In this document: piece after piece, positions 15,424 through 39,667 of the stretch
Layout: every line of letters begins with the position of its first letter
Position numbering within the stretch: position 1 is the first letter of the stretch
Assembly (NCBI RefSeq): GCF_014836985.1
Contig: NZ_JACSPU010000004.1
Coordinates: 186,001 to 250,000 of the forward strand
Direction: 5' to 3'
DNA from: Planococcus wigleyi
GTDB taxonomy: Bacteria > Bacillota > Bacilli > Bacillales_A > Planococcaceae
Length of the DNA stretch: 64,000 bases
Program-made: the position numbers and the translations under genes
The notes under the pieces: model-generated
What the model saw: the letters and a program-made list of their open reading frames with translations, nothing else
The model's database searches: none
What the model was told of the DNA's origin: nothing

Positions 15424-15468
15424 CTAATTCCCTCCAACAAACATCTGTTCGTATAATTCTCTCTCTTA

Positions 15469-18079: not shown

Positions 18080-20794
18080 TTATACTTCTAGCAATTTGTT
18101 GCGCAGCACCATTTGCAGGATGCCGCCGTGGCGGAAGTAATCCACTTCGACTTCAGAATCGAAACGTGCCAATACTTTGAACTCAGTCACTTTACCGTCT
18201 TCAGCAGTAGCTGTAACAGTAAGGACGTCGCGAGGTTTCACGTCATCAGTCAAGTTGACGCTAATTGTTTCGCGGCCAGTCAAACCAAGAGAATCCGCGC
18301 TTTCGCCATTGACGAATTGCAATGGAAGAACACCCATCATCACAAGGTTTGAACGGTGAATACGCTCATAGCTTTCAGCGATAACTGTTTTGATGCCTAG
18401 AAGGAATGTACCTTTAGCAGCCCAGTCACGTGAAGAGCCCATGCCGTAATCTTTACCAGTCAAGACAACAAGTCCTGTGCCTTGCTCCTGGTACTTCATA
18501 GCAGCATCGTAGATCGCCATTGTTTCGCCCGTTGGCCAGTAAGTTGTGTAACCGCCAGTTGTGCCTGGAGCTACTTGGTTACGGATACGGATGTTAGCGA
18601 AAGTTCCGCGCATCATAACTTCGTGGTTACCGCGGCGAGATCCGTAAGAGTTGAAATTACGTGGCTCTACGCCGTTTTCACGAAGGTATAGGCCTGCTGG
18701 CGTATCTTTGCCGATGGCACCAGCTGGTGAAATGTGGTCAGTCGTGATAGAGTCTGCAAATTTCGCAACTACACGAAGGCCGGATAGTGCTTGGATCGGT
18801 GCCGGTTCTTTAGAAAGACCTTCAAAGAATGGCGGGTTTTGGATATAAGTTGATGTTGCATCGAACTCATACAATGAATCGTCGTTAGTTTCAATCGCAT
18901 TCCATGCTTCGTTCTCGTTGAATACGTGCTCGTATTCTTTGCGGAACAATTCTGGAGTAACTGTGTCTTTAACGACTTGTTTGATTTCTTCAGTTGTAGG
19001 CCAGATATCTTTGAAGAAGACATCTTTTCCTTCTTTGTCTTTGCCGATCGGCTCAGATTCAAAGTCGATATCCACAGTTCCAGCAAGTGCATAAGCAACA
19101 ACAAGCATTGGAGATGCCAAGTAGTTAGCTTTAACAAGTGGGTGGATACGTCCTTCGAAGTTACGGTTACCTGACAATACAGATGATACCAATAGATCGT
19201 TGTCCAAGATCGCTTCTTCAATTTCAGGAAGCAATGGACCCGAGTTACCGATACATGTTGTACAGCCGTAGCCAACAAGGTTAAAGCCGATTTGGTTCAT
19301 GTAGTCCAACAAACCAGAATCGTTCAAGTAACCTGTAACGACTTTAGATCCCGGCGCCAATGAAGTTTTCACGTAAGCAGGTGGAGTCAATCCTTTTTCT
19401 ACTGCTTTTTTCGCTACTAATCCAGCACCAAGCATTACGTACGGGTTAGAAGTGTTTGTACAAGACGTGATTGCCGCAATCGCCAATGCACCCGTCTTCA
19501 TTTCGGCAGTTTTGCCGTCTTTGAAGTTAACTGTTGCTGTTTTCGCGATTTCAGCTGCATCAAGTGCAAAACCGTGTGGTCCTTCTTCGCCTGTTACAGC
19601 TTTGTTGAACTCAGGTTTCATTTGAGACAAAGGAATCAAATCCTGTGGACGTTTTGGTCCAGCAAGGTTAGGTTCGATTTCAGAAAGATCGATTTCCACA
19701 AGGTCTGTGTAGATCGGATCTTCGTTGTCAACTGTGAAGAACATGCCGTTCTCCTGCAAATATTTTTTAGTGACAGCAATTTGGTCTGCATCACGTGCAG
19801 TCAAACGCATATAGTCAAGCGCTTCTTCGTCAACTGGGAAGAATCCGCAAGTTGCGCCGTATTCTGGAGCCATGTTGGCAATCGTTGCACGGTCAGCAAG
19901 TGGCAATGTTGTAACACCAGGGCCGAAGAACTCAACAAATTTACCTACAACACCTTTTTTACGCAAAGTTTGTGTAACTTTCAACGCCAAATCGGTTGCA
20001 GTAGCACCGTTTGGAAGTTCGCCAGTCATTTTAACTCCGATAACTTCAGGAATCGGGAAATATGAAGGCTGCCCAAGCATACCGGCTTCTGCTTCGATAC
20101 CGCCTACGCCCCATCCAAGAACACCGATTCCGTTGATCATTGTCGTATGTGAATCTGTACCGACTAATGTATCAGGGAATGTTTCGAAAGTACCATCCGC
20201 ATTTTCAACAGCATGGACAACGTTTGCAAGATACTCAAGGTTTACTTGGTGAACAATACCAGTTGCGGGTGGAACTGCACGGTAGTTGTCATAAGCTTTT
20301 TGAGCCCAGCTAAGGAATTGGTAACGCTCAGCGTTGCGGTCGAATTCAAGTTCCATGTTAATGCGTAGTGCATCTTGTGTTCCGTAGTTGTCAACCTGTA
20401 CCGAGTGGTCAATAACCAGATCCACTGGAATTTCAGGGTTGATTTTGTTCGGGTCTCCACCCATTTCAGCCATAGCTGAACGAAGTGCAGCCAAATCAAC
20501 GACTACTGGTACGCCTGTGAAATCCTGAAGGATAACGCGTGACGGCTTGAATGGAACTTCAGCTTCTTTGTTAGCGTCTTTGCCCCATTTTGCTAATTCT
20601 TCAACGTGCTCATCTTTGATTACGTACCCGTCGTGCTGACGCAATACGGATTCCAATAGGACTTTGATTGAATAAGGAAGGCGTGATACTTTAGCGATCC
20701 CTGCTTCTTCTAATGCTGCTAAACGATAATAGTTAAACGTTTTGCCATTTAGCTCAAAAGAAGTGCGGCTGTTGTGCAAACTGCTCTTTGCCAT
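18080..20794 (-). CDS. citB: Aconitate hydratase A
   Basis: TCA-cycle aconitase that interconverts citrate and isocitrate; the apo form of the B. subtilis homologue also binds RNA. It has 904 residues of the AcnA/IRP type. The Fe-S cluster cysteines are in [12 protein letters not shown] and [14 protein letters not shown]. The C-terminal swivelling domain has the active-site region [19 protein letters not shown] lies 9 bases before the ATG. It is monocistronic, in the same neighbourhood as yneP-yneT and parEC, as in B. subtilis. The upstream 140 bases contain a plausible promoter (TTTACT, 17 bases, TATGAT on the - strand). Confidence 0.97.
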
Positions 20795-20935
20795 TTGTGT
20801 GTTCCTCCTTTAAATCTTCTGAAAAGGCTCGTGACAGCACTTTTCTCCTCTTCCATCATACCTAATGCTTGAGCATAAGTAAATTACATTAAAATTATAC
20901 AATGTGATAAGTTTTTCGAATGACTTTCTTTCGAC

Positions 20936-21439
20936 TCAATCGAGTTTGCTTAAGGTCTCTTGCAGTTGCTTGAAATGGCGCTTTTCGTGTAAGCCCACAA
21001 ATGGAAACCACTGGACCAGAGGTACTTTCCCAAAGACCGGGTGCGGCATTGATTTTTGTTTCAGCTGTTCAGGCGTAGCCTGGCTGTACACTTCGTACAG
21101 GAAATTATGGGAAGCATTCAGGCGTTCTTTCATTTCTTCGAGTGTAACAAAGTCTTCGGTGGGCACTACGTGTTTCGGAGCATCCACTTTAAAAGAACGG
21201 CTGACAGTCAACGCAATCGGTTTTTTCACCGCTTTTTCACCAGTTTCTTTTTTCAGCTCACGGGATACGCCTTTGGCGACAGTTGTCTCCATTAATTGAA
21301 GATGATCCAAGATTTGAATAGGTGACCATTCTTCAGGTGTCGGTTTTCTGTTCAGCTTTTCATCAGGCATCCCTTCTACGGCCTGCAGAATCTGGTTCCT
21401 GATTTTGGCATTGTCTTCTTTGAACATATCAGTATGCAC
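20936..21439 (-). CDS. DinB-fold protein
   Basis: A four-helix-bundle protein of the DinB/YfiT superfamily, 167 residues. Candidate metal-binding histidines are in ILDHLQLME (about residue 46) and near the C-terminus in LHEKRHFKQL. Members are often thiol-dependent transferases, but this one's substrate is unknown. Start uncertain: GTG 21439 (GAGG 8 bases upstream) or ATG 21427 (AAGGTG 9 bases upstream). No LexA box was found before it, so SOS control, as known for B. subtilis dinB, is not supported here. Confidence 0.78.
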   Translation of the reverse strand: MHTDMFKEDNAKIRNQILQAVEGMPDEKLNRKPTPEEWSPIQILDHLQLMETTVAKGVSRELKKETGEKAVKKPIALTVSRSFKVDAPKHVVPTEDFVTLEEMKERLNASHNFLYEVYSQATPEQLKQKSMPHPVFGKVPLVQWFPFVGLHEKRHFKQLQETLSKLD

Positions 21440-21648
21440 CTTCGTTTCCTCTAATTGCCTATCCTTATTAACATACCCTAAATCGAATGGTTTATATACA
21501 TTTATGGCGATAGATTTTCTTTTCCCTTCTATAGAAAGAATAAAAATGAGATTGGTTTCTTCAAAATAGGAACGAAAGGGAAAATACGTTCTATTTACCT
21601 GTATTAATGGTATAATTTAAGGAAATCCCTTAGAAGAGGTGACGCTTT

Positions 21649-22509
21649 ATGCCTTATGGTTACGAGAAATTCCGATTGGACAACGGCATCAGCCCCAACA
21701 CGGTTGTCCATGAAGTCCAATTGATCCGCTCGCTCTTCGCTTTTCTTAGGCATACGTACAAAAGACCGGTGGAACCTCACGAAATCCGTCCTTCCGATAT
21801 TCAGCAATTTCTGCAGGACCAGCACGCTGCCGGCATCAAAGACAGCACACTGAACCGAAAACTGATCTATATAAGAAGATGGTTCGATTATATGTGGCAG
21901 ATCGGACGCATTCCCAACGATTTTATGCCCAAGTTCAAATTCAACAGAAAACTGGATTTGACCCCTTCCGATATTCACTTGGATTACGAAGACCTGCTGA
22001 AAAAGAAAGACGCGGTGCTCGAAGCCGATCACCTTTCATTAAATGCTAAGATTTTATATATCCTTTACCTGCGCGGCCTCCGCCTGCGGGATATGGTGGC
22101 TATTGATATCGATAACTTTGATGACCGAGATGGTCAGCTGGCGTTGGCAGTCGAGAAAAAAGACGGCTATCAATGCCGCCTTGAATTCACAGACAAAGAA
22201 ATCCCTGTTATGTTGGATGGAATTGAACGCGCCGTCTTTCGCGGTACGCCCTACCTGTTATCTTCGAAAGTGAAAAATGAATACACCATGTTCCAGATGG
22301 GTTCATTGTCCGATTACACCGAAGCCCTTTCCTCGTTTGTCGGCATGCCCATGAGGTCAGGTGATATTCGTTTTGCTTATGTATATTACCTTTACTCTGT
22401 GGAGCATAAGAATTTGGAAGAAATCCAGGAAATTTTAGGAGTTTCACTCGACTCCGCATCCCGAATCCTAAAAGATTCTTTGGTCCGCCTGAAAAGAGGC
22501 ACCCATTAA
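21649..22509 (+). CDS. Tyrosine-recombinase-like protein without catalytic tyrosine
   Basis: A 286-residue protein with the two-domain build of Xer-type recombinases: an N-terminal SAM-like core-binding domain (about 10-95) and a C-terminal catalytic-type domain (about 110-280). Arg145 (RGLRLRDM) and Arg241 (GDIRFAYVYYL) align with the two catalytic arginines. The box II histidines are replaced (Gly238, Phe242), the GH of the next motif is GV (Val265), and no tyrosine occurs after residue 248, where the nucleophile should be near 273-276. It should bind DNA but not recombine it. No att site or prophage is nearby. Confidence 0.72.
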   Translation: MPYGYEKFRLDNGISPNTVVHEVQLIRSLFAFLRHTYKRPVEPHEIRPSDIQQFLQDQHAAGIKDSTLNRKLIYIRRWFDYMWQIGRIPNDFMPKFKFNRKLDLTPSDIHLDYEDLLKKKDAVLEADHLSLNAKILYILYLRGLRLRDMVAIDIDNFDDRDGQLALAVEKKDGYQCRLEFTDKEIPVMLDGIERAVFRGTPYLLSSKVKNEYTMFQMGSLSDYTEALSSFVGMPMRSGDIRFAYVYYLYSVEHKNLEEIQEILGVSLDSASRILKDSLVRLKRGTH

Positions 22510-22544
22510 AAAAGCCTATCCCATTGAAAACGGGATAGGCTTTT
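22510..22544. terminator. Bidirectional terminator
   Basis: A perfect 13-bp stem (AAAAGCCTATCCC with its complement). It starts 1 base after the recombinase-like gene and 13 bases past the end of the small - strand gene. Confidence 0.85.
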
Positions 22545-22556
22545 GCTTGTTTCGCT

Positions 22557-22664
22557 TCATGTCAAGAAACCGAAATCCAATGCAAAATTAAAAATAAGCA
22601 ATGTATGAAGGACCACAAATATTAAAGCTTGTCTGTCAAGCTTCTCAACATTTTCGTATTGCAT
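22557..22664 (-). CDS. Small membrane protein, 35 residues
   Basis: A short gene with a very strong ribosome binding site (GGGAGGGG, 8 bases before ATG 22664). The peptide begins MQYENVEKLDRQ and continues as one hydrophobic helix (ALIFVVLHTLLIFNFAL) to a short tail. Convergent with the recombinase-like gene and sharing its terminator. I do not recognise the family. Translation is suggested by the binding site, the clean amphipathic start and the helix. Confidence 0.55.
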   Translation of the reverse strand: MQYENVEKLDRQALIFVVLHTLLIFNFALDFGFLT

Positions 22665-22781
22665 CAAGACCACCCCTCCCTTATGAATAGTCTGATTATA
22701 CTGAATTCGAATGAAGATGGCAAGCATTGTTTCTTTCTCCTGCTTTTAGCTATAATCAAGAAAAAGGATTGGAGTGATTTT

Positions 22782-23324
22782 ATGAAGAAAGCATTATTGG
22801 TTGTCGACTATACAATAGATTTTGTAGCAGATGATGGAGCCTTAACCTGCGGAAAACCAGGACAGGCTATTGAAGAAGCGATTTGCAATCTGACAGAAGA
22901 ATTTTTGACTGAAAAAGAGCTGGTGGTTATGCCGGTTGATCTTCATGAAAAAACCAACGCCTTTCATCCGGAAGCAGAACTCTTTCCTCCCCACAATATA
23001 AGAGGAACTGCCGGAAGAGAACTTTATGGCCGCCTAGCAGAAGTCTATAAAGCCAATGCCGACCGGATCATTTGGATGGACAAAACCAGATACAGTGCAT
23101 TTGCGGGTACCAACCTGGAATTGCTGCTGCGGGAACGAAAAATTGAAGAAATCCATATCGTAGGCGTTTGTACAGATATCTGTGTACTGCATACTGCGGT
23201 CGATGCCTATAACAAAGGCTATAAAATATTCATTCATGAAAATGCTGTTGCAAGCTTTGATCAAGCTGGCCATGATTGGGCCCTGCGCCACTTCAGCACT
23301 ACCTTGGGCGCACACGTTTTATAA
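22782..23324 (+). CDS. pncA: Nicotinamidase/isochorismatase-family cysteine hydrolase
   Basis: A 180-residue cysteine hydrolase of the isochorismatase fold. The catalytic Asp is in LVVDYTIDF, the nucleophile Cys in VGVCTDICVLHTA, and the metal-site pattern (DLHEKTNAFHPE) fits nicotinamidase, which makes nicotinate from nicotinamide in NAD salvage. The central lysine lies in DKTRYSAFAGT. ATG 22782 follows GGAG by 7 bases; the longer reading upstream has no site. Family sure, nicotinamide as substrate likely. Confidence 0.85.
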   Translation: MKKALLVVDYTIDFVADDGALTCGKPGQAIEEAICNLTEEFLTEKELVVMPVDLHEKTNAFHPEAELFPPHNIRGTAGRELYGRLAEVYKANADRIIWMDKTRYSAFAGTNLELLLRERKIEEIHIVGVCTDICVLHTAVDAYNKGYKIFIHENAVASFDQAGHDWALRHFSTTLGAHVL

Positions 23325-23414
23325 CTTTTTTTCTCTTTTATGTTTCAAACGTCCTGATTCCGGTTATACCTAGAGTGTAGCACTTATTCATTACATTAAA
23401 AGGAGCTGGAAAAA

Positions 23415-39319: not shown

Positions 39320-39442
39320 AACGTAAAAAACCGAATGCGTGAGCATTCGGCCAGCTGTATGCCGCCACGAGAGCGGTTGGCTGGAATATAGGCTTAAAAG
39401 ATAACCGTCATTCCACGCCACATGGGACGGTTATTTTTTTTT
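39320..39442 (+). ncRNA. Antisense RNA, type I antitoxin (RatA-like)
   Basis: A predicted RNA of about 120 nt with no reading frame. It has a perfect hairpin at 39331-39350, a second hairpin about 39351-39384, and a terminator with 9-bp arms (39401-39409 and 39426-39434) ending in nine T residues. It is antisense to the whole 3' untranslated region and last codons of the small toxin gene on the other strand. This layout is that of txpA/ratA and bsrG/SR4 of B. subtilis. Confidence 0.7.
39325..39350 (-). terminator. Terminator of the toxin mRNA
   Basis: On the - strand a perfect 8-bp stem CCGAATGC with its complement and 4-base loop is followed by six T residues (39325-39330), about 80 bases past the toxin stop. 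The same hairpin is the first stem of the antitoxin RNA. Confidence 0.75.
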
Positions 39443-39538
39443 GTTGATGACCAAAATCATGGAAACGACAAGTGTCAGAGCGCTGATCGTTATCCCGATA
39501 CTCGTAAACACGAGACCGAATGATTCTGCTATGGTCAT
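39431..39538 (-). CDS. Holin-like type I toxin, 35 residues
   Basis: A small hydrophobic peptide beginning MTIAESFGLVF, with one membrane helix and ending INKKK, the form of the 'putative holin-like toxin' family. Such peptides insert in the membrane and stop growth when in excess. GGGGG lies 7 bases before ATG 39538. On the mRNA that site can pair with an upstream CCCC inside a hairpin (39543-39565), a usual guard on type I toxins. The three Lys codons and stop lie on the terminator of the antisense RNA. Confidence 0.72.
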   Translation of the reverse strand: MTIAESFGLVFTSIGITISALTLVVSMILVINKKK

Positions 39539-39594
39539 GTTACCACCCCCTTTCCTGGGGAATGGCCAAACCGCCCTCATACAGCTGTACCTTT

Positions 39595-39623
39595 ATTTTA
39601 GCACAACGGGAACATTTGTTCTA
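39595..39623 (-). promoter_or_regulatory. Toxin promoter with LexA box
   Basis: On the - strand -10 TAAAAT (39595-39600) and, 17 bases away, a weak -35 TAGAAC (39618-39623). The 14 bases 39609-39622 read AGAACAAATGTTCC and match 13 of 14 positions of the Bacillus LexA (DinR) consensus CGAACRNRYGTTYC, overlapping the -35 and spacer. LexA bound there would block the promoter until DNA damage. Confidence 0.6.
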
Positions 39624-39667
39624 TTATTTCCATTAAATATTTTAACGCAACCAAAAAAAGCCATCTT

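Follow-up and report, generated by a model that had tools for sequence, protein, structure and literature searches.

A cleavage-dead Xer-fold gene of the Planococcus chromosome and its relatives in plasmid replication and partition modules

What can a protein with the fold of a tyrosine recombinase still do once the residues that cut DNA have been lost? The question is raised by a gene, here called the dead-Xer gene, in the window, by which we mean the whole stretch of 64,000 nucleotides of Planococcus wigleyi DNA that was analyzed. A sequence-only reading of this stretch had described a living Xer-like gene that lost its nucleophile and proposed a new role for it, either in DNA binding or as a partner of XerC/XerD.

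The gene, its residues and its predicted fold

The coordinates and the intact frame of 286 codons given by the sequence-only reading are exact, and they are collected with the neighboring features in Table 1. The terminator that it reported is represented by a 16-nt inverted repeat (94% complementary, right arm ending in TTTT) directly 3' of the stop codon, a hairpin that the consensus scan did not list; the same scan called no promoter at the extended -10 sequence, and Rfam gave no match within positions 20800-23400.

Table 1. Positions of the dead-Xer gene, its parts and its neighbors in the window, and of the plasmid site discussed in the text
Feature	Position	Strand	Remarks
Promoter-region element GGGAAAATACGTTCTATT	21578..21595	+	Imperfect GAAC-N4-GTTC palindrome; kept in most of Planococcus
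Extended -10 like sequence TGGTATAAT	21608..21616	+	Placed by reading the sequence
Cleavage-dead Xer-fold gene, 286 aa	21649..22509	+	ATG at 21649, stop ending at 22509, no internal stop
N-terminal core-binding region, residues about 4-100	21658..21948	+	Pfam SAM-like match at 8-82; of the first 100 residues, 60 are invariant in 36 orthologues
Degenerate catalytic region, residues about 101-286 and stop	21949..22509	+	Kept: R145 (RI), D148 (E/D), K171 (K; less certain, its column lies beside alignment gaps), R241 (RII). Lost: His to G238 (HII), His to V265 (HIII), Tyr nucleophile to L274
Terminator-like hairpin	22510..22544	+	Arms 22510-22525 and 22529-22544
DinB-like neighbor (name presumed from its sequence)	20936..21439	-	Conserved, adjoins the dead-Xer gene; dN/dS control
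Aconitase, acnA (name presumed from its sequence)	18080..20794	-	Conserved near neighbor of the dead-Xer gene
31-bp plasmid site	L039 9497-9527 and equivalents		Behind the rep stop of PriCT-type Planococcus plasmids

Judged by profile scores, the homology of this open reading frame to the tyrosine recombinases is above chance. The SAM-like core-binding domain PF02899 is matched with 34.1 bits (cut-off 22.3) and the integrase profile phrog_1 with an E value of 2.4e-9. The catalytic domain PF00589 reaches 12.4 bits, below its cut-off of 27.1, and a search of the whole genome with PF00589 matched eight other places, the dead-Xer gene not being among them. The NCBIfam models for XerC and XerD score 47.4 and 46.0 bits, under their curated cut-offs of 335.15 and 329.6, so that the protein is not an equivalog of either, and the PRK00283 model, at 46-47 bits, is likewise far below its cut-off.

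The catalytic columns were set by alignment with nine active Xer proteins (residues in Table 1). All seven columns agree across 38 of 38 chromosomal rows, which comprise 36 from Planococcus and two from the neighboring genus g36, save that HIII is Ile in two: the arginines RI and RII are present in every row, HII is Gly, HIII is Val or Ile and the nucleophile position is Leu. The loss of the box II histidine, the GH histidine and the tyrosine noted from the letters is therefore borne out, and it is the same loss throughout the chromosomal group.

An AlphaFold2 prediction built on a 23-row alignment (mean pLDDT 91.5, pTM 0.74) shows the complete fold of a tyrosine recombinase along its full length. 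Its best Foldseek match is XerH (E 7.5e-10), and VIA-align superimposes it on an integron integrase with Z 17.6 (rmsd 3.4 over 254 residues) and on Cre and XerH with Z 16.9, which agrees with the earlier statement that the fold is recognizable. The protein thus shares with XerC, XerD, XerH, XerA and Cre the whole-length fold, the core-binding domain, RI, K and RII, and differs from them in lacking the tyrosine, HII and HIII and in falling under the PF00589 cut-off; the common fold by itself does not establish a function. A separate sigma-like C-terminal domain was considered and rejected, since the Sigma-70 region 4 match at residues 247-282 (18.6 bits, cut-off 24.1) aligns with the C-terminal helices of the recombinases.

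Conservation, genomic place and selection

A lack of orthologues, which the sequence-only reading had named as the sign of recent decay, is the opposite of what was found. In a set of 60 genomes the gene is present in 36 of 36 Planococcus genomes searched, the 35 relatives having 73-95% identity, and the 24 genomes of other families gave either no match or matches at background level (best E 1.3e-7). A scan of 200 genomes of the family added five further positive Planococcus genomes (G084, G142, G184, G190 and G232) and, outside that genus, two of g36 (62-64% identity), one of g29 (47%) and one of g41 (41%). Matches occurred in four of the 19 genera, and 168 of the 200 genomes had no match at E 1e-10.

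Ten larger loci were compared (six Planococcus, two g36, one g29 and one g41), their neighbor genes bearing names presumed from the sequences. The order acnA, DinB-like gene, dead-Xer gene is kept in 8/8 of the Planococcus and g36 loci. In the six Planococcus loci this group is framed by parE on one side and a GlsB-like gene on the other, with small gaps such as a missing isochorismatase gene in L076. The GlsB-like gene lies more than 6 kb further away in the two g36 loci, and in one of these, L067, the genes from the thioesterase gene to parE were not found to the left of acnA. None of the Planococcus chromosomal neighbors is present at the g29 and g41 loci.

By the NG86 method the median dN/dS of the gene is 0.025 over the 60 usable pairs of 630, usable meaning a dS between 0.1 and 1.5 and hence the closer relatives. 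The value is 0.023 for residues 1-100, 0.026 for residues 101-235 and 0.047 for residues 236-283, and it is 0.024 over the 35 pairs without a plasmid-type paralogue in either genome; the DinB-like control gave a median of 0.076 (51 usable pairs of 630). These substitution rates indicate strong purifying selection on the gene in every Planococcus genome searched. With its conserved place and the uniform residue losses, the gene fits the earlier description of a living gene without its nucleophile.

Plasmid relatives and descent

Equally dead, more distant relatives were shown by sequence comparison to belong to plasmid modules that recur and that hold genes for Rep, partition or TubZ, a kinship with plasmid replication and partition that is new here and was invisible to a reading of the letters alone. 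Eleven additional copies with 32-35% identity to the chromosomal gene are carried by 9/36 Planococcus genomes, one of them on the 528-kb contig C15 of the window's own genome; copies on contigs without a plasmid label were assigned as plasmid-type by their neighbor genes. A tblastn search of PLSDB gave 15 records from seven genera, nine of which cover at least 80% of the query, and ten of the 15 were inspected (H4 and H12-H15 being left out). Among the plasmid loci counted below, L045 and L058 are the same plasmid, as are L057 and L077, and L042 and L056 are nearly so.

Two types of module can be told apart. In the first, the gene found next upstream of the dead-Xer gene is a PriCT-type rep in 10/10 loci, within about 160 bases in nine and at about 1 kb in L043, the PriCT_1 domain itself having been verified in one locus. 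Behind the rep stop, 11 of 11 loci of this type (10 distinct plasmids at most) carry the same 31-bp sequence with no more than one mismatch, and the window's genome has a single copy of a 26-base part of this sequence. This site is possibly an origin, a control site or a binding site, and it could be Rep's own; the 49-base stretch around it folds no better than shuffled sequences (z 0.35). In the second type, three genes, d1-d2-d3, lie downstream of the dead-Xer gene in 13/13 loci and ThiF-like genes follow further on in 11; d1-d2-d3 had no Pfam match above cut-off in the one plasmid scanned. Annotations place a TubZ/FtsZ-like gene upstream in five of the seven Bacillaceae plasmid records. As a separate observation, the ThiF-like genes behind the second-type module are mostly accompanied by JAB/Mov34-like genes and, where annotated, by E2-like genes (L057, L059-L062, L064, L065, L044, L048, L049 and L077).

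HII, HIII and the tyrosine are missing from 12/12 Planococcus plasmid-type rows and 7/7 Bacillaceae plasmid rows. RII is present in all of these, RI is Arg or Lys, and the catalytic Lys is not kept. The 15 plasmid records are labeled as "site-specific integrase" (nine) or as a "phage integrase N-terminal SAM-like domain" protein (six). Judged by their residues, the aligned plasmid proteins can hardly be integrases, and the database labels would then be wrong. Outside Planococcus and g36 no relative is closer than the g29 copy, which lies in neither plasmid module nor in the Planococcus place. Among the titles and abstract openings listed by searches of an open-access library, none described dead Xer-like genes from Planococcus or from plasmid modules.

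Other sources of the gene were tried and set aside. For a phage origin, no tblastn match was obtained in 50,697 phage records, and a scan of viral contigs gave 33 stretches with the pattern, none a relative by tblastn. For a defense gene, PADLOC matched neither the window protein nor the P. versutus plasmid relative. Negative results from structure and profile libraries speak only for the families that those libraries contain.

In two trees, the second omitting five long-branch rows of the first, the dead plasmid rows and the Planococcus rows form one clade (support 100/99 and 100/97), within which the chromosomal clade (97/95 and 93/92) stands beside the Planococcus plasmid-type clade (100/100); g29 and g41 have no firm placement in either tree. 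An arrangement that unites every plasmid row in one separate clade is rejected (p-AU 0.0017, for a group named after the first tree was seen). By our own count the tree requires two or three plasmid-to-chromosome changes of location or three separate captures by plasmids, a count that alone leaves the direction of transfer unsettled. The homologous d1-d2-d3 genes common behind the dead Xer in Bacillaceae, g41 and second-type Planococcus loci favor a plasmid ancestor, because shared neighbors of this kind would not result from separate captures. Since the Bacillaceae and second-type Planococcus plasmid copies share neighbors and lie in one clade with the chromosomal gene, we infer that the latter descends from a plasmid gene.

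A second dead chromosomal Xer-like group was found in family f11 (Aneurinibacillus and its kin; 10 rows from three genera), with Gln at HII, Ile at HIII and Val or Ile in place of the tyrosine. Its rows branch between the active Xer rows (100/99) and the clade of dead plasmid and Planococcus proteins, a position compatible with a single old loss, though long branches meet there. The f11 loci (L089-L095, L097-L099 and L106-L109) thus hold a second chromosomal Xer-like family without tyrosine or catalytic histidines at the usual places, and in the five loci that were read it is adjoined by genes that we presume to encode a guanylate kinase-like protein, a chalcone synthase-like protein or both.

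A binding role and the explanations that compete with it

The protein probably acts now only by binding DNA, because the parts needed for cutting are lost, yet the gene is kept throughout one genus and its kin stand beside plasmid replication genes. The explanation that we favor, and think reasonably probable from these comparisons, is that a plasmid-derived, cleavage-dead recombinase fold has been retained on the chromosome as a stable site-specific binder, either a repressor or an architectural protein. The two recombinase domains would clamp a short DNA site whose backbone would be held by R145, K171 and R241, and since both domains could grip the site and cleavage would be impossible, binding would be stable. 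Plasmid copies may tune replication or partition, and the chromosomal copy may regulate its own promoter, other sites or both. The near-invariant 31-bp plasmid site counts in favor of this reading.

A precedent is MrpR (YopR), the master repressor of the Bacillus subtilis prophage SPbeta, a DNA-binding protein with a recombinase fold that does not recombine; the authors who described it think that recruitment of this kind will prove "more widespread than previously anticipated" (PMC10516654). According to the same paper, MrpR keeps Tyr304 and the Lys, has lost RI, HII and HIII, and needs the tyrosine crucially for binding DNA (PMC10516654). The dead-Xer protein, which keeps RI, K and RII and lacks HII, HIII and the tyrosine, would on that description be dead in a different way. 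It resembles MrpR in having a recombinase fold without, as judged from its residues, the recombination chemistry. Both come from Bacillota, and the structural alignment (PDB 8A0A) has Z 11.0 and an rmsd of 16.7 over 253 residues, which implies that the domains agree better than their arrangement, at 9% identity. MrpR is a prophage gene, whereas the dead Xer belongs to the core genes of a chromosome and has kin on plasmids. SroF of phage phi3T (PDB 9rd5, 9rgl), a DNA-bound recombinase-fold protein called a repressor in the titles of its entries, aligns with Z 13.2 and an rmsd of 6.3 over 265 residues; it differs in being a phage gene, with 8% identity. The new role in DNA binding suggested from the letters would fit the fold and the MrpR precedent: a plasmid-maintenance DNA-binding protein may have been taken over as a core gene that, like MrpR, binds without cutting.

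The streptococcal "XerD-like" protein is a Xer relative that is not known to be needed for recombination at the streptococcal dif site; no "XerD-like" family was among the NCBIfam matches of the dead-Xer protein.

The other half of the earlier proposal, a partner of XerC/XerD, found no positive support here. A non-cutting partner or modulator that occupies a half-site or joins the synapse at dif, or at dif-like sites of plasmids, appears unlikely to us. It would share the fold of XerH and Cre, the genome has six dif-like matches at three mismatches where the control has none, and one half of the 31-bp site matches, by eye, the right arm of the plasmid dif-like sites at 8/11 positions, by our own estimate an event of about 4% chance over all offsets. 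Against it, the other half of the site is unlike dif, so that we reject the resemblance as unconvincing, no linkage to xerC or xerD was seen, and the 168 family genomes without a match presumably have XerC and XerD. Sites of about the form ACTTCYGATAA-N6-ATATGTAAACT/C occur several times on contigs C15 and C5 of the window's own genome and in L041, and a candidate chromosomal dif lies on contig C16 (dif-like loci L167-L172, L039 and L041). These dif-like sites recall the pdif modules of Acinetobacter plasmids and lie here in Bacillota.

The promoter region bears on a second alternative, that of an SOS-response gene under a weakened LexA box, with a protein that would have damaged chromosomes or induced elements as its targets. 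With 18 of the 36 orthologues aligned, GGGAAARYACGTTCTATT is recognizable upstream of the extended -10 in 17 of 18 rows, and there it has the form of a GAAA-N4-GTTC palindrome with an RNRY core, the remaining row having AAAC-N4-GTTC. A shorter form of the element is exact in 23/38 Planococcus genomes (30 loci, seven of them repeats). The element matches the LexA consensus at 11 of 14 positions, holding the same off-consensus letters in 17/18 rows, whereas the Planococcus boxes upstream of lexA and recA score 13/14 and 14/14 (14/14 genomes each), and GAAC-N4-GTTC with at most one mismatch occurs 23 times in the window against a chance mean of 25; the SOS explanation is accordingly improbable. 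The element has one exact copy genome-wide, still a single copy at up to two mismatches, and the twelve other matches carry three mismatches (control count ten). It was seen upstream of neither g36 orthologue and is altered in the most divergent Planococcus member aligned, which together with the LexA score suggests that it may belong to another regulator. The element may thus be the site of such a regulator, a weak SOS box or an operator bound by the dead-Xer protein itself.

Two further sequences in the window were noted in passing. A perfect GAAC-N4-GTTC palindrome at 39608-39625 lies upstream of a short hydrophobic peptide frame read by eye on the minus strand (about 39430-39540) that is reminiscent of an SOS-controlled small membrane toxin, and a LexA-like box, CGAACAGATGTTTG, lies on the minus strand at 15438-15451, just upstream of parE.

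Just as doubtful as the SOS explanation is a captured incompatibility determinant, with which the chromosome would counter incoming plasmids that bear a relative of its own copy. Kin in plasmid replication and partition modules would be expected of such a gene, but nine of 36 Planococcus genomes hold the chromosomal gene together with a plasmid-type copy, the two are only 32-35% identical, and selection is equally strong where no plasmid-type copy is present. That the protein is still a recombinase with its nucleophile elsewhere is very improbable. Some tyrosine does stand between 8 columns before and 12 after the usual place, often seven beyond it, in 11/12 Planococcus plasmid-type and 6/7 Bacillaceae plasmid rows; both histidines are missing in all 57 rows of the three groups, and 0/38 chromosomal rows have a tyrosine in that range, so that a hidden tyrosine, the other finding named in advance as contrary to a lost nucleophile, is ruled out for the chromosomal gene. 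Recent decay of a recombinase would account for the lost catalytic residues and is refuted, to our minds almost completely, by the presence in 36/36 genomes, the kept locus and a dN/dS of 0.025 against 0.076 for the control.

The gene is real and well conserved, its plasmid kin are, judged by their residues, mislabeled in the databases, and a phage precedent exists. We propose tentatively the wider picture in which dead Xer proteins are a standing, mislabeled part of large Bacillota plasmid replication and partition modules, and in which one such protein was captured to become a Planococcus core gene and chromosomal regulator. As a lineage conserved in plasmid modules, the dead Xer proteins are candidates for a part in plasmid maintenance, and the chromosome of Planococcus provides a simple setting for studying the conversion of an enzyme that cuts DNA into a regulator that binds it. 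For a phage, such a change was demonstrated with MrpR; here it would concern plasmids and a core chromosomal gene, and the dead-Xer family would, if the binder reading is true, be a case of such recruitment outside phages.
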